Source: Desulfobulbaceae bacterium (GTDB taxonomy: Bacteria; Desulfobacterota; Desulfobulbia; Desulfobulbales; Desulfocapsaceae). Taken from it: a stretch of DNA of 50,742 nt. The stretch is from positions 13,899 through 64,640 of the forward strand of contig JAFLKM010000029.1 of NCBI GenBank assembly GCA_019163335.1, read 5' to 3'. This document shows positions 31,212 to 39,960 of this stretch, one piece after another. The notes under the pieces are model-generated. The model saw only the letters and a program-made list of their open reading frames with translations, made no database searches and was not told the DNA's origin. Position numbers and translations under genes: made by a program. Every line of letters starts with the position of its first letter. Position 1 is the stretch's first letter.

Positions 31212-31997
31212 ATGCCGCTAATCCTTATAACCAACGATGATGGCGTAGAAAGCCCAGGACTCAAGGTCCTTGCCTGTGCCCTTCGCCCTCTGGGAAATTG
31301 TGTGATCGTTGCCCCTGACCGGGACAATTCGGCGGCTTCGCACTCTCTGACTATGAATCGTCCCCTGAAGGTCACAAAAATTCAGGAAGATTATTACTCT
31401 GTGGACGGAACCCCCACAGACTGCGTCGTCATCGGGCTGAACAAAATCCTTGGTAAACAGCCGGATCTGCTGGTCTCGGGGATCAATCCAGGCCCCAACC
31501 TGGGCGATGATATCGCCTATTCCGGGACGGTATCGGCCGCAGTGGAAGGCACCATGTACGGCATTTCATCCCTGGCGGTTTCCCTGGCCGGCACCCATCC
31601 CTTTGATTTTACCTTGGCCGGGCAGGTCGCCGCCTGGCTTGCCGCCATTATCCTGAAACAGGGCCTGCCCGAGAACACCCTGCTCAACGCCAATATCCCT
31701 GGAATACAACCGGCACAGGGCGTCAAGGTCACCCGGCAGGGACGGAAACTATGGAAAAACGCCCTTCAGGAGACCCTTGACCCATGGGGACGGAAACATT
31801 ACTGGATCGGAGGCGGTACCCCCAATCTGGATCCAGACGAAGATACCGATGTCAGCGCCATCAATGCCGGCTTTATCTCAGTGACGCCCATCCATCTTGA
31901 TCTGACCAATCATGCCGGAATTGATTACCTGAGAAAAAAATGTGCCCTGGAACAAATGCCTATTCCCCTCCTCCCTTCTGTTTGCGGGAAAAATTAG
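31212..31997 (+). CDS. surE: 5'/3'-nucleotidase SurE
   Basis: A 261-residue nucleoside monophosphate phosphatase. Metal-site residues: Asp-Asp in ILITNDDGVESPGL, then the Ser/Asn blocks APDRDNSAASHSLTMNRPL and VSGINPGPNLGDDIAYSGTV. Ribosome binding site AGGAG sits 8 bases before the ATG. Its last 38 bases overlap the 3' end of the convergent thioredoxin-reductase-like gene. Confidence 0.96.
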   Translation: MPLILITNDDGVESPGLKVLACALRPLGNCVIVAPDRDNSAASHSLTMNRPLKVTKIQEDYYSVDGTPTDCVVIGLNKILGKQPDLLVSGINPGPNLGDDIAYSGTVSAAVEGTMYGISSLAVSLAGTHPFDFTLAGQVAAWLAAIILKQGLPENTLLNANIPGIQPAQGVKVTRQGRKLWKNALQETLDPWGRKHYWIGGGTPNLDPDEDTDVSAINAGFISVTPIHLDLTNHAGIDYLRKKCALEQMPIPLLPSVCGKN

Positions 31998-32904
31998 CCG
32001 CCTCCATCCCGGCCACACAGCCCTCACCCACCGCCTTGGCAAACTGATAAGGATGACCGGCAATATCTCCGGCGGCATAAACACCGGGGATATTGGTCTC
32101 TGCCAGTTTATTGGTATCGATATGGGTCATGGTATCAAGATCAAGCTGAACCCCGATATCCAGGGCAAGCTCCATGGCCCCCTTGGCCCCAAGCTCGATA
32201 AAAACCCCATCAACCTTGACCTCTGCCCCTGATTTCAAAAGAATGGACTGCACCGCCTTTTCTCCCTGGATTGCCGTGACCCAGGTTCCGGAGAGGTGTT
32301 CTACCGTGGAGTTTTTCAATTTGTCCAGAAGATCGCTTGAGGCCACCAGATCCTGACTGACCAGATAGACCCTGGCGGCATAACCGGTGAGGGTCAGAGC
32401 GCCGTCAATGGCCGCGCTGGCATTGCCGACCACTGCTACCGTGGCATTGCGGTAAAAATTGGCATCGCAATCCACACAATAGGATACGCCCCGGCCAGCC
32501 AGCTCCGTCTCACCCGGCACTTTCAATTTTTTCCTGGCCGTGCCAGTGGCAAAGATCACCGCGCGACTGCTGATGGAGGCACCACCCTCGAGATCAAGGA
32601 CAAACAGGGCATCATCCTTCTGACGAATCTTCAAGACATCATCCTCCAGCACTTGAGCTCCAAACCTTTTGACTTGAGCCATCCCCGCCTCAAGCAACTC
32701 CTGGCCCGTCTTCACGCCATCCACACAGGCATAATTCTCCACATGGGCAGAATAGAGCGAACTCCGTTCAATTCTACCCAGCATCATTGTTGTCGCCTTT
32801 TTACGAACCGCATGAATAGCTGCCTGAATCCCGGCCGGTCCCGCCCCGATAATCACCACATCATACAGTGAGGTCTTTGTTTCACTCTCCAGTTCAGTTT
32901 TCAT
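31960..32904 (-). CDS. Thioredoxin-reductase-like FAD/NAD(P) oxidoreductase
   Basis: A 314-residue flavoprotein of the TrxB family. The FAD motif is VIIGAGPAGIQAAIHA near residues 16-31, the redox pair is C-V-D-C in YCVDCDANF (TrxB usually has CATC), the second Rossmann is VAVVGNASAAIDGALTL, and the FAD end is GVYAAGDIAGHPYQFAKAVGEG. The nucleotide motif GNASAA departs from the GxGxxA of NADPH-using TrxB, so the electron donor may differ. It is convergent with surE and overlaps it by 38 bases; it is divergent from the lipid cluster. Confidence 0.88.
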   Translation of the reverse strand: MKTELESETKTSLYDVVIIGAGPAGIQAAIHAVRKKATTMMLGRIERSSLYSAHVENYACVDGVKTGQELLEAGMAQVKRFGAQVLEDDVLKIRQKDDALFVLDLEGGASISSRAVIFATGTARKKLKVPGETELAGRGVSYCVDCDANFYRNATVAVVGNASAAIDGALTLTGYAARVYLVSQDLVASSDLLDKLKNSTVEHLSGTWVTAIQGEKAVQSILLKSGAEVKVDGVFIELGAKGAMELALDIGVQLDLDTMTHIDTNKLAETNIPGVYAAGDIAGHPYQFAKAVGEGCVAGMEAANFSRKQKGGGE

Positions 32905-32951
32905 TTATTCCTCATAATAATTTAATTTTATTCGCTATTTCTTTACCTTGG

Positions 32952-32969
32952 CATCATTCGTTAATGATG
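32952..32969. promoter_or_regulatory. Palindrome in the divergent spacer of the lipid cluster
   Basis: CATCATT-CGTT-AATGATG is a perfect 7-bp inverted repeat 48 bases upstream of the flavoprotein gene, in the 231-base spacer it shares with the ketoacyl synthase gene. It could be an operator for a dimeric regulator or a simple hairpin. TCATTCGT recurs at 33117-33124 and 39085-39092. Confidence 0.3.
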
Positions 32970-33135
32970 AATGATCACCATTATTTTTAGATTTTTCCGC
33001 ATTCCTCTTGAATTCTCAAGCAATATATCCTAATGATAAAAAGTTTAAGCCTGATCATGGAAGAAACTGTACAAGAATTGCCCTTCCACCTAACCCATTT
33101 ATAATAAGCTCACTGTCATTCGTCAATTGACCATC

Positions 33136-34377
33136 ATGGATAACAATCAGCAAAGAATCGTCATCACCGGAATCGGCCTGGCCGCACCCGGTGCTGATAA
33201 TCTCAAAGATTTTCGCGCCCAGGTTCTGGCCGGAAACTCCGGAATCAAGGAAATTGAGCTCCGCTACTTCGGGTCTGCCCCTGCCGGCATCTGCACCTTT
33301 GATGAGACCAGATACCGGAAAAAAAGGGAAAATAAGCGCGGCACAAGGGCTGGTTGCCTGGGGGTTTATTGTGCCCACGAGGCCCTGGCGGACGCCGCCC
33401 TGTCCATTGATCACTACGAAAGGTCCCGCATTGGCGTGTATATGGGCCTGACGGAACATGGCACAGTGGAGACAGAAAACGAGATATTCAATATAAGTAA
33501 TTATAATTATGATGTAAAATACTGGTCTCACCACCACAATCCCCGCACTGTTCTCAACAACCCGGCAGGTGAAATCACCATGAGCCTCGGGATCACCGGG
33601 CCCCATTATGCCATCGGCGCCGCCTGTGCAGCCGGCAACGCCTCACTCATTCAAGGAGTGCAGATGCTCCGCCTTGATGAGGTGGACATGGCCCTGGTAG
33701 GTGGTATATCAGAGTCACCCGGTTCTTTTGGCATCTTTGCGAGTTTCAAGGCCCAAGGGGCCCTTGCCGAGGCAGCAGATCCGCGCCAGGCCTGTCGTCC
33801 TTTTGACATGGACAGAAACGGGATCGTGGTTTCGGAAGGGGCCTGTATCTACGTCCTTGAACGTCTGGAGAAGGCCCTTGACCGCGGAGCCAGAATTTAT
33901 GGCGAGATTGCCGGCTACTGCATCAACTCCGATGCCCGCGATTTTGTCCTCCCGTACGACAAGCGTCAGGCTGAATGTATGCAGCAAGCCCTGAAGCGGG
34001 CGGGGATGGAACCTGGCGATATCGATATCATCAACACCCACGCCACCGGCACGAAACAGGGCGACATCGAAGAGTGCAAGGCCATTCGGCAGGTCTTTGG
34101 CGAGGCGCCATCCACTTATATCAACAACACCAAATCAATCATCGGCCATGCCATGGGAGCCGCAGGCGTTCTAGAACTTGCCGGCAATCTCCCCGCCTTC
34201 GAAGATCATCTGGTCCACCCCACCATCAATGTTACCAACCTGGATCCGGAGTGCGCTTTACCCCACATGGTGCTCAACACACCAGTGCAGCTTCCAACCA
34301 TCTCCACCATTCTCAACAACTCTTTTGGCATGGTTGGCATCAATTCCGTCATCATTGTCAAAAAATATGAGAAATAA
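33136..34377 (+). CDS. Beta-ketoacyl-ACP synthase (FabF-like) of lipid cluster
   Basis: A 413-residue condensing enzyme. The FabF-type triad is present: Cys164 in AIGAACAAGNAS, His302 in NTHATGT and His338 in NTKSIIGHAMG, so it should elongate acyl chains rather than act as a chain-length factor. Between residues 55 and 140 it has unusual basic and Tyr/Asn/His-rich stretches (RYRKKRENKRG, ISNYNYDVKYWSHHH) not usual in housekeeping FabF. It opens the cluster of ACP, two CrtI-type oxidoreductases, reductase and dehydratase. The ATG at 33136 is preferred over the TTG at 33127; neither has a clear ribosome binding site. It is not OleA: the sequence is of the FabF, not the FabH/thiolase type. Confidence 0.88.
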   Translation: MDNNQQRIVITGIGLAAPGADNLKDFRAQVLAGNSGIKEIELRYFGSAPAGICTFDETRYRKKRENKRGTRAGCLGVYCAHEALADAALSIDHYERSRIGVYMGLTEHGTVETENEIFNISNYNYDVKYWSHHHNPRTVLNNPAGEITMSLGITGPHYAIGAACAAGNASLIQGVQMLRLDEVDMALVGGISESPGSFGIFASFKAQGALAEAADPRQACRPFDMDRNGIVVSEGACIYVLERLEKALDRGARIYGEIAGYCINSDARDFVLPYDKRQAECMQQALKRAGMEPGDIDIINTHATGTKQGDIEECKAIRQVFGEAPSTYINNTKSIIGHAMGAAGVLELAGNLPAFEDHLVHPTINVTNLDPECALPHMVLNTPVQLPTISTILNNSFGMVGINSVIIVKKYEK

Positions 34378-34397
34378 TTTATATTTTTCCAGAAAGA

Positions 34398-34435
34398 TAT
34401 AAAAAGTATTGGCAGGATATGGTATAAAAAGTATT
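34398..34435 (+). repeat. Two direct repeats TATAAAAAGTATT before the ACP gene
   Basis: TATAAAAAGTATT occurs at 34398-34410 and again at 34423-34435, 25 bases apart, in the 167-base AT-rich spacer between ketoacyl synthase and acyl carrier protein genes. It could be a regulator-binding pair or part of an internal promoter. Confidence 0.5.
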
Positions 34436-34544
34436 TTTTTCATCGAACCATCTTTCACCACAGCTTCCATTTGTAACCATACAGAGACATTACACTAAAA
34501 AATATTAATTTATTTTTGAGAAATAGATTCATTCTGGAGAGACC

Positions 34545-34796
34545 ATGACACGTGACGAAATTAAAGATCTCATTCTCGAGATCATTAAAGATATTGACGA
34601 AGACGCTGATTTTAATACCCTCCAATCCGATCTGCCGCTGCGCGACCAGCTTGATCTCGATTCCATGGATTTTCTCGACATCGTCATGGAGCTGCGAAAA
34701 CGGCATAAACTCCAGATCCCGGAGGAAGACTATCCTCAGCTCGCGTCTTTAAGCAGCTGTGTCAACTACCTCGAGCCACTGCTTAAAAACATCTGA
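34545..34796 (+). CDS. Acyl carrier protein of lipid cluster
   Basis: An 83-residue ACP. Ser40 in DLDSMDFLD is the phosphopantetheine attachment site. Charge and helix pattern are typical, with DSMDF replacing the DSL seen in fatty-acid AcpP; this suggests a dedicated carrier for the cluster. The ribosome binding site is GGAGAGA. The following FAD enzyme starts 25 bases after the stop. Confidence 0.93.
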   Translation: MTRDEIKDLILEIIKDIDEDADFNTLQSDLPLRDQLDLDSMDFLDIVMELRKRHKLQIPEEDYPQLASLSSCVNYLEPLLKNI

Positions 34797-34821
34797 CAGA
34801 GCACCTGACAACCTTCTCGAC

Positions 34822-36210
34822 GTGCACACTTCTTTGCTGATTATCGGCGGCGGTCTTTCTGGACTAGCCGCCGCTATTCGTTTAGCCCGTTTCAATCCCG
34901 ACGTCCTCATCCTGGAAAAACACTCCCGCGTTGGTGGCCTCAACTCCTGGTATTACCGTCACAATTCCCTTTTTGAGACCGGGCTCCATGCCATCACCAA
35001 CTTTGCCCCGCCGGAAGACAAGAACGCACCGCTTAATCGTCTCTTTCGCCAGTTAAAACTGCGGCGTAAGGACTTCGATTTTCACGAACAACTAGCCAGC
35101 GAGATCTGTTTTACCAACCAGGAGACACTCCGTTTTTCCAATGATTTCGACTTACTGCTCCATGAAATTTCCAGCAAATTTCCAGGCTGCACATCTCAAT
35201 TTATCAGGCTGGTGGAGACCATCAAGGAACACGATCCTTTCCAGACAACCCCTTTCCGCTCTGCCAGAAGCTATCTGACAGGCACCCTGAACAACCCACT
35301 TTTAGTGGACATGTTGCTTTGTCCGCTCATGTATTATGGGTCAAGTGTGGAAAACGACATGGATTTCAACCAGTTTGTGATCATGTTTCGGGCGATCTTT
35401 CTAGAAGGGATGTTCCGACCCCATGGGAGCATAAAGGATTTTCTCGATCGCCTGCTCAACCATTATCAAAACTTTGGCGGCAAAATCCGCATGCAGGCCC
35501 AAGTGGCCAAAATCATCCATCAAGGCAACAAGGTCCAGGGCGTGGAGCTGACAGACGGCGAGGTTATCGAATGTGACGCCCTGCTTTCCACCATTGGCCT
35601 GGAAGAGACTTTTGCCTGCCTCGACACCCCGCCTCTTCGTAAGACGCAAGGGGTGCGGCTTGGCTTTGTTGAGTCCATCTTTCGCCTGCCGGCGGACTGC
35701 CGGGAGAGTTTGCCCACGGACAAGACCATTATTTTCTACAATAGCCGCGAACAACTCCTTTACCAGCGACCGCAATCACTGGTTGACCTTGCAAGTGGAG
35801 TCATCTGTTTTCCAGCAAATTTCCAGAGCCTTGCCCCCCAGCCACATTTTGAGATCCGCACCACCCATCTCGCCAATTACAGCAGCTGGAAGTCCCTAGC
35901 CGGTGACAAAACCGCATACAACACTGCCAAAAGCACTATTGCCCGCCAGTCTAAGACGACCGTCGAGAAAATCATTGGTAATTTCACACAACATGTTGTA
36001 TATGAAGATACTTTTACACCCTTGACGATAGAACGCTTTACTGCAAAAAAAGAAGGCGCGATTTATGGTTGTCCCGACAAAATCAAGGATGGCATTATCG
36101 GCTACGACAACCTTTTTCTTGCCGGTACCGACCAAGGCTTTCTCGGTATTGTCGGTTCCATGCTCAGCGGCGTCTCCATTGTCAACCAGCATATCTTGTC
36201 CCGCTTGTAA
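34822..36210 (+). CDS. CrtI-type FAD oxidoreductase (first of two)
   Basis: About 462 residues of the phytoene desaturase/amine oxidase superfamily. The dinucleotide-binding motif is [20 protein letters not shown] at the N-terminus, followed by [13 protein letters not shown], and the C-terminal FAD block is [23 protein letters not shown]. The start is uncertain: the GTG at 34822 puts the FAD motif five residues from the N-terminus; the frame stays open back to a GTG at 34759 inside the ACP gene. Next to ACP, it probably acts on an acyl chain bound to ACP (desaturation, isomerisation or ring formation), not on a carotenoid, because no phytoene synthase is present. This role is inferred. Confidence 0.82.
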
Positions 36211-36233
36211 CAAAAACCAATAAAAACAACTCC

Positions 36234-37640
36234 ATGCCTTTCTCTTTAGATAAAGCGGCAGACCGCTACGATGTCATTGTTATCGGCTCTGGCCTGGGCG
36301 GACTGACCACCGCCAAACGCCTTTCCTATTGCGGCCACAAGGTTCTGCTCCTGGAATTTCATCACCAGTTGGGCGGACTGGCCACCTGGTTTAAACGCAA
36401 AGGCCATATTTTTGATGTTTCCCTGCATGGGTTTCCCTATGGCATGGTCAAGACCTGCAAAAAATACTGGACCAAGGAAATCACTCAGTCCATTGTCCAA
36501 CTCAAAAATATCGTCTTTGACAACCCCCAGTTTTCGCTAAAAACGACCTTTGACCGCCTCGACTTCACGGCCCTGCTTCATCAGAAATTTAAAATTCCCC
36601 AGTTGACCATCGACCGTTTTTTCGCAACGGTTGCGGGAATGAATTTTTATGACGACCAGACCATGACCACCAGGGAGCTGTTTGAGGAATTTTTCCCTGG
36701 CCGCAGCGATGTCCACCGCCTGCTCATGGAGCCCATCACCTATGCCAACGGCTCCACCCTTGATGATCCGGCCATCACGTATGGCATCGTCTTTTCCAAC
36801 TTCATGAATAAAGGGGTCTTCACCTTTGAAGGTGGGACGGATAAGCTTATCGGCTTGATGACCGAGGATCTCGAACGCAACGGCGTAACAATCTGCACCA
36901 GCGCCAGGGTCGACCGAATCATCGTTGAAAAGGGGCAGGTACGGGGCGTTGAGGCAGGCGGACGAACCATCACCGCCCCGGCCGTGGTGTCTAACAGCGG
37001 CATTACCAACACCATTCAGGATCTTGCAGGACGGGATTCATTTTCCTCTGATTTCCTGGCAAAGGCCGATGCAATTCGAGTCAACAACTCCAGCTGTCAG
37101 GTCTATATCGGGTTAAAACCAGAGGCTGTCATCGAGGAAAAAGGTGATCTTCTGTTTACCTCGACGGCCCCTGTCTTTGATTCTTCCGAGCTTCTCGACC
37201 TGCACACCCGTTCCAAGACCTTCTCGATCTACTACCCGAAAACCCGGCCGGGCCATGACCGCCACACCATCGTTGCCTCGATGAACAGTCGTTTTGATGA
37301 CTGGAGCACCCTTACCCAGGAAGCCTACGACACTGAGAAACAAGCCCTAATAGCCCGAACCCTGGTGGATTTGAACCGTTATTTCCCTGACATTGAGAGT
37401 AAAATTGACTGGTTGGAGGCGGCAACGCCTAAGACCTTCAACCGTTACACCCTGCATACCCGGGGCACCTCTTTCGGCACCAAGTTTGAAGGCCTTGCCG
37501 TTTCCCGCGCCCTCTTTAAAGAGGTTGGCGGTCTTTTCCATGTTGGTTCCGTGGGCATCATCATGTCCGGCTGGCTTGGTGCTATCAATTACGGGGTCAT
37601 TGTCGCCAATGATGTCGATGGGTATGTCCGCAGTCTCTAA
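36234..37640 (+). CDS. CrtI-type FAD oxidoreductase (second of two)
   Basis: A 468-residue relative of the preceding enzyme. FAD motif [17 protein letters not shown] at residues 14-30, then [14 protein letters not shown]. The C-terminal end has [20 protein letters not shown], a variant of the usual FAD block. The ATG at 36234 lies 23 bases after the previous stop; the frame is open further upstream but inside the neighbour. Two CrtI-type enzymes next to FAS-II genes is the key oddity of this cluster. Confidence 0.84.
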
Positions 37641-37659
37641 CCAAAATATTCCCAAAAAA

Positions 37660-38400
37660 ATGACCACATTCATCGATCAGAAAGTTGTCGTCACCGGTGC
37701 CAGCCGGGGCATTGGCCGTGCCATCAGCCTGGCCTTTCTCAGACTAGGGGCACAGGTCATTGGTATTTATGGCGGCAACACTGTTGCAGCAGAATCATTC
37801 TTGCAAGAATGCGAGCCTTTTGGTGGCCGGTTGCAGCTCCATCAATGCAATGTTGCCGACAGCCGTCAGGTCGCGGCGTTCTTCCATCAGGTAGAAGAAC
37901 AGTTCAACACCATTGACATCCTGGTCAACAATGCAGGAATTCGCCGTGACGCCCTCCTCGCCCTGATGGATGACGAAAGTTGGCAGCAGGTCATTGATGT
38001 CAACCTCAGCGGCACCTTTTATATGTCCAAGCAGGCGGTGCTGTTGATGATGAAGCAAAAGTACGGACGCATCATCAATATCACCTCGCCGGTGGCCCAT
38101 CTTGGCTTCGCCGGTCAGGCCAACTATGCAGCCTCCAAGGCCGGTCAGATCGGCATGACCAGAACCCTTGCCAAAGAAACAGCACGAAAAAAAATCACCG
38201 TCAACTGTGTATCACCGGGATTTATTGCAACCGAGCTCCTCGACGACCTGAGCACTGAACAGTTGGCTGCCTACAAAAACATGGTGCCCATGCGCCGCTT
38301 CGGCACCGCCGAAGAGGTGGCAGAGGCAGTCCTGTTTCTGGCCGGAGCGCAGGCATCCTATATCACCGGCACCGTACTCGAAGTCAACGGAGGATTATAA
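37660..38400 (+). CDS. FabG-like 3-oxoacyl-ACP reductase (SDR)
   Basis: A 246-residue short-chain dehydrogenase. The cofactor motif is TGASRGIG (12-19), the NNAG motif is at 90-93, and the catalytic residues are Ser143, Tyr156 and Lys160 (NYAASK). CVSPGFIATELL and ITGTVLEVNGGL are FabG hallmarks. It reduces the ketoacyl chain made by the cluster's synthase. The ATG at 37660 lies 19 bases after the FAD gene; an ATG at 37624 would overlap it. Confidence 0.9.
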   Translation: MTTFIDQKVVVTGASRGIGRAISLAFLRLGAQVIGIYGGNTVAAESFLQECEPFGGRLQLHQCNVADSRQVAAFFHQVEEQFNTIDILVNNAGIRRDALLALMDDESWQQVIDVNLSGTFYMSKQAVLLMMKQKYGRIINITSPVAHLGFAGQANYAASKAGQIGMTRTLAKETARKKITVNCVSPGFIATELLDDLSTEQLAAYKNMVPMRRFGTAEEVAEAVLFLAGAQASYITGTVLEVNGGL

Positions 38401-38406
38401 TCAAGT

Positions 38407-38853
38407 ATGAATATTGACCCACGTGTCACGGCCCTGATCCCGCATCGACCCCCTTTTCTCTGGATTGACAGAATTATCAGTTACGAAGAGGGCTCCATGG
38501 TGGCTGAGAAAACCATCCCTGAAGACCTTGACATCTTTAAGGGACACTACCCCGAGCATCCCATTCTCCCCGGTGTCATTCTCTGCGAGGCCCTGTTTCA
38601 GACAGGAGCTCTTCTCATAGCCAGAATGCTTCAGGATGAACAAAATGCTCCCCATGGTGTCCCTGTCCTTACCCGCATTGGCGGCGCACGTTTTAAACGC
38701 CCGGTGGGGCCGGGCAGCATCATCCAGATGCAGGTCAACCTCAAAGAAAAAGTTGCCGGATCATGGTTTTTAAAAGGAATTCTGCGGGTTAAAGAAAAAA
38801 TTGCCGTTCAAATTGACTTTTCCTGCACCATGACATCGATGCTGCAACCATGA
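38407..38853 (+). CDS. FabZ-like 3-hydroxyacyl-ACP dehydratase
   Basis: A 148-residue hotdog-fold dehydratase. Catalytic His47 is in FKGHYPEHPILPGV and Glu61 in LCEALFQTG; PHRPPFLWIDRI at 12-23 is the FabZ/FabA N-terminal block. It is 6 bases after the reductase and its stop overlaps the next start (ATGA). It completes a condense-reduce-dehydrate set with the cluster's own ACP. Confidence 0.92.
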   Translation: MNIDPRVTALIPHRPPFLWIDRIISYEEGSMVAEKTIPEDLDIFKGHYPEHPILPGVILCEALFQTGALLIARMLQDEQNAPHGVPVLTRIGGARFKRPVGPGSIIQMQVNLKEKVAGSWFLKGILRVKEKIAVQIDFSCTMTSMLQP

Positions 38854-39059
38854 GCGCGTCCGACTCATTATCAGCAGAGCTTGCAGATGACCCCATCTTC
38901 ACCTGCCACTGTTGTGATCAACGAAAAGTGCATCTGCAGGGCCGCTGACATAATGCCATGGCCATCTGCACGGGGTGCGGAATGATCCTGTCAGCGAAGG
39001 AATACCGAGAAGAGCTTGATGTTTGGAAAGAGGCATTCTACAAGGAATGCGGTGGTTGA
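38850..39059 (+). CDS. Dual-CxxC small zinc-ribbon protein, candidate selenoprotein
   Basis: A 69-codon reading frame that starts in the fabZ-like stop (ATGA overlap) and is interrupted only by TGA at codon 33 (38946-38948). Read through, it has Cys19-HC-Cys22 and Cys40-TG-Cys43 (ICTGCGM), a zinc-ribbon layout, then an acidic helix with EYREELDVWKEAFY and a last Cys. Coding character continues unchanged after the TGA, which argues against a chance extension. A SECIS-like hairpin sits 17 bases after the TGA. I recall an NCBI family called dual CXXC motif small (seleno)protein with this layout in Desulfobacterota; this is memory, not a search. Alternatives: Arg or Trp codon lost by mutation, or a truncated 32-residue product. 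Function unknown. Confidence 0.6.
38966..38980 (+). promoter_or_regulatory. SECIS-like hairpin after the in-frame UGA
   Basis: CTGCAC (38966-38971), loop GGG, GTGCGG (38975-38980), six pairs including one G-U. The loop begins 23 bases after the UGA and starts with G. That fits the loose rules I recall for bacterial SECIS elements (apical loop 16-37 bases after UGA, G in the first two loop positions). It is short and could be chance. Confidence 0.35.
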
Positions 39060-39255: not shown

Positions 39256-39960
39256 GTGCAACTCTCGATTACCAATATGATCCTCCATGCCGGGCCGGTC
39301 GGCCAGCTGGTGATGCTTGTTCTTCTCATCTTTTCCATGATTTCCTGGTCAATTGTCTTTATCAAGATGAGACTTTTCAAAAGGGTTCTAGCCGACACCC
39401 AGGATTTTCTCGAGGCCTTCTGGTCTTCGAGCAAACTCAGCGAGGCCTATGACACTGCCCAGGAGTATGAATTCAGTCCCGAAGCGGCAATCTTTTCGGC
39501 AGGCTTTACCGAACTCCAGAAAATCAACAAGATCCGTAACCGCAAGGAGGGATCAACGCAGACAGAAACCCTCGATATGCAGATGGCCACCATGGATAAT
39601 CTGAAACGGTCCATCCGCAAAACAGAGTCGCAGGAGATTACCGAGCTTGGGAAATACCTCCCATTCCTCGCCACCACCGGCAGCGCAACACCTTTTATCG
39701 GCCTGTTTGGAACAGTCTGGGGTATCATGGCCTCCTTTCACGATATCGGCATGCGCGGCTCAGCCTCGCTGACCGTTGTCGCTCCAGGTATCTCTGAGGC
39801 CCTGGTCGCGACGGCAGCAGGCCTTGCGGTGGCCATTCCAGCAGTTATCTTCTATAATTATTACGCAAGTAAACTTACCTATATCGAAGGTGAGATGCAG
39901 AACTTTTCGACGGATTTCCTCAACCTTGTTGAACGCGATCTTATCAGTCGTTCACAATAA
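39256..39960 (+). CDS. tolQ: TolQ/ExbB-family proton channel subunit
   Basis: A 234-residue inner-membrane protein with three membrane segments: near 10-32 (VGQLVMLVLLIFSMISWSIV), 140-160 and 175-200. The conserved FIGLFGTVWGIMASF and SEALVATAAGLAVAIPAV blocks are complete. With TolR it forms the motor that energises TolA. GTG start with AAGGA upstream. A 155-base gap before tolR is unusual for this operon. Confidence 0.92.
   Translation: MQLSITNMILHAGPVGQLVMLVLLIFSMISWSIVFIKMRLFKRVLADTQDFLEAFWSSSKLSEAYDTAQEYEFSPEAAIFSAGFTELQKINKIRNRKEGSTQTETLDMQMATMDNLKRSIRKTESQEITELGKYLPFLATTGSATPFIGLFGTVWGIMASFHDIGMRGSASLTVVAPGISEALVATAAGLAVAIPAVIFYNYYASKLTYIEGEMQNFSTDFLNLVERDLISRSQ

Follow-up and report, generated by a model that had tools for sequence, protein, structure and literature searches.

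A predicted dual-CxxC selenoprotein gene behind a lipid gene run in a Desulfobulbaceae bacterium

A frame with one TGA between a fabZ-like gene and tolQ

The window, by which we mean the whole 50,742-nucleotide stretch analysed from a Desulfobulbaceae bacterium (contig JAFLKM010000029.1 of assembly GCA_019163335.1), holds a run of lipid genes followed by a tol-pal run. Between the two lies the candidate gene that concerns us, together with the following features.

38407–38853, plus strand: fabZ-like dehydratase gene, with a 4-base overlap with the selenoprotein start (TIGR01750, 109.6 bits, below that model's cut-off of 155)
33127–38400, plus strand: rest of the lipid operon, namely a ketoacyl synthase, an acyl carrier protein, two CrtI-like oxidoreductases and a FabG-like reductase (ORF starts not refined)
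31960–32904, opposite strand to the lipid genes: thioredoxin-reductase-like gene at the other end of the lipid run
38850–39059, plus strand: predicted selenoprotein gene, 69 codons and a stop (39057–39059), from its frame, TGA conservation and selection
38904–38915, plus strand: first CxxC, codons 19–22, putative zinc ligands
38946–38948, plus strand: UGA predicted as selenocysteine (Sec), codon 33, in the motif Gly-Arg-Sec, from homologue comparison
38963–38984, plus strand: bacterial SECIS-like hairpin with loop GGG at 38972–38974, from comparison of homologues
38967–38978, plus strand: second CxxC, codons 40–43, putative zinc ligands and also the hairpin core
39256–39960, plus strand: tolQ, which opens the tol-pal run (TIGR02796, 237.7 bits, above the cut-off of 221)

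An earlier, sequence-only reading of this DNA had described a 69-codon frame that starts in the stop codon of the fabZ-like gene, is broken by a single TGA and carries a CxxC pair on either side of it. Its coordinates proved right. The ATG shares the bases ATGA with the fabZ-like stop (ORF end at 38853), the only in-frame TGA is codon 33, and the four cysteines of the frame make up the two pairs at codons 19, 22, 40 and 43. Translation of 38850–39056 gives MSASDSLSAELADDPIFTCHCCDQRKVHLQGR-Sec-HNAMAICTGCGMILSAKEYREELDVWKEAFYKECGG. As that reading had also noted, an ordinary gene finder passes over the place: the ORF list (table 11, 60 aa minimum) has no entry on this frame at 38850–39059. No tRNA genes were found within the window.

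Both parts of the frame had been thought to look coding, and comparison with named relatives agrees. Summed over 11 such comparisons, pN/pS was 0.31 for 16 codons before the TGA and 0.41 for 29 codons after it. Judged by these ratios, both halves evolve under purifying selection.

The lipid run as a whole (31960–38853) recalls gene clusters discussed for ladderane lipids, and a 2009 study of ladderane lipids (PMC2649909) reportedly names Desulfotalea.

Conservation of the TGA and of the RNA behind it

We searched for homologues at several depths. Among 97 genomes, the window's own included, 31 held a homologue at E<1e-4, with exactly one TGA in 30 of them; the one without was G056. Any match at E<=1 was found in 64 of the 97, much of it noise. 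Within the genus the gene was present in 13 of 16 congeners, the assemblies of the other three being 76, 55 and 84 per cent complete; in one of these three, G013, the slot was seen empty, so that the gene is absent there. A profile search of the phylum gave matches at E<=0.001 in 55 of 395 genomes. A scan of genome contigs with the window protein by itself found no relative, and alignment A2 was too varied to be suitable for such a scan. The tighter alignment A3 led to 12 named loci, all from MAGs and bearing the names Desulfobulbaceae, Desulfocapsa, Desulfocapsaceae, Desulfoarculaceae or Deltaproteobacteria. A supposed Cys paralogue in the window's own genome (L146, on C26) was dropped, having a short matching stretch and an unrelated-looking frame.

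The sequence-only reading had proposed looking for homologues with Sec, Cys or Arg at codon 33. When all distinct stretches were pooled, 86 of 95 had TGA at this place and five had a Cys codon (L111, L112, L113, L114 and L143); of the remaining four, L093 is a decayed copy with the Arg codon CGA and three are chance matches or fragments. The TGA-bearing members are spread over many families of the phylum. In the 86 rows that were aligned, the column holds Sec 82 times and Cys four times.

A bacterial SECIS element is a hairpin just behind the UGA, with a G early in its loop. A hairpin with a G-starting loop had been pointed out here, and it is indeed present: its CTGCAC core, formed by the second CxxC codons, starts 17 bases after the TGA. 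It failed as evidence from a single sequence: at 57 nt, 138 of 200 shuffles folded equally well (z +0.47), and at 33 nt 54 of 200 did (z -0.63). The window hairpin alone is thus no better than chance, and it becomes evidence only through comparison with homologues, which does bring out both the hairpin and the early loop G. For 78 members (79 rows of the first filter, less L136 of the sister clade) the mean hairpin energy was -9.51, against -7.91 (sd 0.20) when synonymous codons were shuffled between members with every protein kept, a control that ignores relatedness; none of 200 shuffles was as low. Sliding the test over 24 windows, with two of the 78 members lacking full flanks, placed the strongest effect at bases 10–42 behind the TGA (z -7.5). 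Some windows away from the hairpin also reached z -2.1 to -2.9, and -4.0 at +39, values which may measure what relatedness alone can give.

The commonest stem occurs in 51 of the 78 members, with G as the first loop base in 48 of these. Another 17 were assigned to a second form, with the stem shifted by about six bases towards the TGA; a few of these look wrongly placed and could be of the first form. Neither form fits the other 10. Paired positions covary in places, one pair changing from C-G to T-A in three of the 51 and to G-C in one. The common stem has eight pairs, seven of which are preserved in the window and 4 to 6 in each of the five Cys forms. By this comparison of sequences, the constraint on the RNA behind the TGA goes beyond what the protein needs. 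Rfam gave no SECIS match at the selenoprotein place; RF00031 had no match over the genome and none in any of 14 control genomes either, so this search is uninformative.

Decaying copies were also seen. The copy in G056 (L093, 9792–9917 in its oriented locus) has CGA for TGA, and copies in G016 (L014) and G003 (L004) look frame-shifted, although assembly errors are also possible. CGA or TGG at codon 33 in close relatives had been named beforehand as something that would speak against Sec. CGA does occur in L093, but there the residues before it have changed as well and the reading frame breaks down past the second CxxC, so the decayed copy does not refute the reading. Taken with the congener that lacks the gene, these copies indicate that the gene is dispensable. 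They are also what might be cited for the other explanation offered at the outset, that the window gene was recently inactivated, its TGA being simply a nonsense mutation. Against this stand the recurrence of the TGA in 86 of the 95 stretches, across many families, and the purifying selection and RNA constraint behind the codon. The conserved TGA already refutes inactivation for the family, and for the copy in the window we give it next to no credence.

Selenocysteine machinery and family membership

A search of the genome for selA, selB, selC and selD had been suggested, and most of this machinery was found. The genome has selB on C39 (387.5 bits), tRNA-Sec (selC) on C75 (70.6 bits, with ARAGORN agreeing on the anticodon tca) and selD on C53 (373.6 bits). 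The last has an in-frame TGA of its own in the motif GUAAK, the usual Sec site of SelD. No selA was found in the assembly with TIGR00474 or PF03841, and PF03841 detects it in 15 of 16 congeners. In three congeners we read the gene that follows selA; its homologue in our genome opens contig C33, starting at base 1 with query residue 15. Because C33 starts inside this gene, the contig breaks where selA would be expected, and selA is probably missing owing to an assembly gap.

Further tRNA-Sec matches turned up in relatives. A second tRNA-Sec (ARAGORN tRNA-SeC, anticodon tca) lies at 1888–1980 of L198 (G095, contig C19) and at 1737–1829 of L199 (G067, contig C104), adjoining in each case an additional SelB-like match that is shorter (290 and 289 bits, model positions 2–352 and 2–357). 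These pairs are possibly a second set for Sec decoding. Extra tRNA-Sec-like matches of about 99 bases (58–62 bits) occur in G006, G009, G011, G015 and G016 (L197 and L200 are examples) and not in the window's genome; in G016 such a match is the sole one listed. ARAGORN calls neither of the two such matches that were read.

Between selenocysteine and recent inactivation, the evidence thus favours selenocysteine: the prevalence of TGA with Cys in five stretches, selection on both halves, the constrained RNA, and the presence of selB, tRNA-Sec and selD. On these comparative grounds we consider it nearly certain that this is a genuine selenoprotein gene, in which SelB and tRNA-Sec, at the hairpin that follows directly, would decode the UGA of codon 33 as selenocysteine. 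Translation may be coupled to that of the fabZ-like gene through the ATGA overlap.

The sole NCBIfam match of the window protein is NF041197 (E 7.3e-7), a model named 'dual CXXC motif small (seleno)protein' whose members, like the window protein, have Sec or Cys flanked by two CxxC pairs. All 28 members of alignment A1 match it at E<=0.1. At 29.3 and 28.4 bits the window copy stays below the cut-off of 40, and the model alone would miss the gene; same-clade relatives L096 (41.9) and L108 (41.2) lie above. The Sec members fall into two clades, one with G-x-Sec (78 members, one with C-x-x-Sec) and one with R-x-Sec (eight members, all eight with C-x-x-Sec). The tree covered 86 of the 95 rows, leaving out rows under 48 residues, L146 and L093; with few columns and 43 open forks, it was used for the two-clade split alone. 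Of ten proteins scored, the NF041197 cut-off was passed by four of four in the RxU/RxC clade and two of six in the GxU/GxC clade, which places the centre of the model in the sister clade. One genome, G317, has members of both clades about 4 kb apart on L095 (5843–6034 and 9926–10105), each with TGA.

The family itself is already in print. A 2026 review (PMC13188914) has NF041197 under two names, 'Dual CXXC motif small protein (OS_HP3)' with RxU and 'Hypothetical protein DW' with GxU. OS_HP3, an Olavius symbiont protein for which that review cites Zhang and Gladyshev (2007), is also listed in a 2022 review (PMC9312934); it belongs to the same NCBIfam family as the window protein, and its RxU fits the sister clade (R-R-Sec). 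The deep-Sep paper (PMC12013277) gives DW from Desulfosarcina and describes new families with Cys homologues and SECIS-like structures. By its sequence, the window gene appears to be a member of the NF041197-related family in clade G-[RK]-Sec, matching DW (SMF39960.1), the two being equated by the G-x-Sec motif and the family number. No function for DW or OS_HP3 was found in the available text of the literature searched.

Predicted fold, genomic context and possible role

The window protein folded poorly by itself (pLDDT 51.3). With 12 sequences, the model reached a mean pLDDT of 76 and a pTM of 0.55, with strands at 27–30, 37–40 and 46–48 and a C-terminal helix at 49–68; it places the Sec position in the turn after the first strand, between strands 27–30 and 37–40. 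Foldseek returned no match at E<=0.001 with this model, and of the nine matches that a PDB sequence search gave up to E 1, none was convincing (best E 0.033). In fold, the NrdR ribbon (Z 3.2, 2.1 A over 38) and ribosomal zinc ribbons (best Z 4.1) resembled the model weakly, and Pfam gave weak likenesses to the Elf1 ribbon (12 of 28 members, best 3.7e-4) and Lar (six of 28). Elf1, Lar and the NrdR N-terminal domain share with the window protein, at weak scores, two CxxC knuckles around a pair of strands; unlike it, they are without selenium, and none reaches a convincing level. These likenesses could suggest a ribbon that binds nucleic acid or RNA polymerase, with Sec as a redox switch. They are all weak and typical of any zinc ribbon, and with the empty Foldseek result they leave such a role doubtful. 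Its more specific form, a selenol at the turn of the strand pair and next to Arg that switches a nucleic-acid or polymerase contact and so uses selenium for regulation rather than catalysis, strikes us as a long shot.

The sequence-only reading had set the gene at the end of the lipid cluster, which is true here and specific to the window's lineage. In its genus and a few relatives the gene stands between the fabZ-like gene and tolQ, at the end of the lipid run. Of 30 fabZ-like loci, 24 have tolQ behind, and the slot is filled in 15 of these and empty in nine. The fabZ–tolQ spacing is 307–490 bases with the gene and 168–260 without it, apart from one of 476, and the 4-base overlap recurs in 12 of the 17 loci examined. 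With the window and 40 loci taken together, nine of the 41 contexts have a ketoacyl synthase nearby and eight have tolQ as the very next gene. Elsewhere the neighbours include antiporter subunits, TPR proteins, a histidine kinase, CoaE and Rho, topoisomerase, BON, CobD and FapA. Among the neighbour families annotated for these contexts, a minority of all neighbours, no redox partner kept across them was seen. The differing neighbours make the gene's position a matter of lineage, with no general link to lipids.

A dedicated part in the lipid pathway, for example as reductant of the two CrtI-like enzymes, had been considered for the gene's position and was set back once the wider contexts were seen. 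The filled slots, the recurring overlap and the thioredoxin-reductase-like gene at the other end of the run would fit such a part. The nine empty slots, one of them in a congener, and the unrelated neighbours in most other lineages (antiporter subunits, topoisomerase, the Rho/CoaE region, TPR proteins) count against it, and we now hold it to be very improbable.

Alternatively, Sec could be a ligand for a metal or metalloid, in a metal chaperone or a detoxifying thiol/selenol carrier, rather than a redox catalyst. Four further cysteines in 69 residues bring the sulfur/selenium sites to five, and in one order-level pair (L079, L082) a heavy-metal ATPase lies two or three ORFs from the gene. Metal-transport neighbours were seen in just two of the 41 contexts, counting by the annotated families, which cover a minority of the neighbours, and we regard this role as unlikely.

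The function we propose is redox chemistry by a selenol. The two CxxC pairs would hold zinc in a small ribbon, and the selenol, with a conserved Arg next to it, would occupy the turn that joins two strands. It would act as the reactive nucleophile in thiol/selenol redox chemistry and be reduced again by a partner thiol. Cys is the natural substitute for Sec, and its presence at this place in homologues argues for chemistry by the selenol. We rate the chances of a redox selenol as about even. The whole proposal, a selenoprotein with a redox selenol on a zinc ribbon, we judge likely, with the selenoprotein identity weighing most.

Such a gene is unsurprising in the selenium-using Desulfobacterota. 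Its recovery suggests that a reader of raw sequence can find a selenoprotein gene that is lost by a table-11 ORF list and falls below the cut-off of its family model. The 86 TGA and five Cys stretches may lead to better models for automatic annotation, and they name residues that can be tested in this family.
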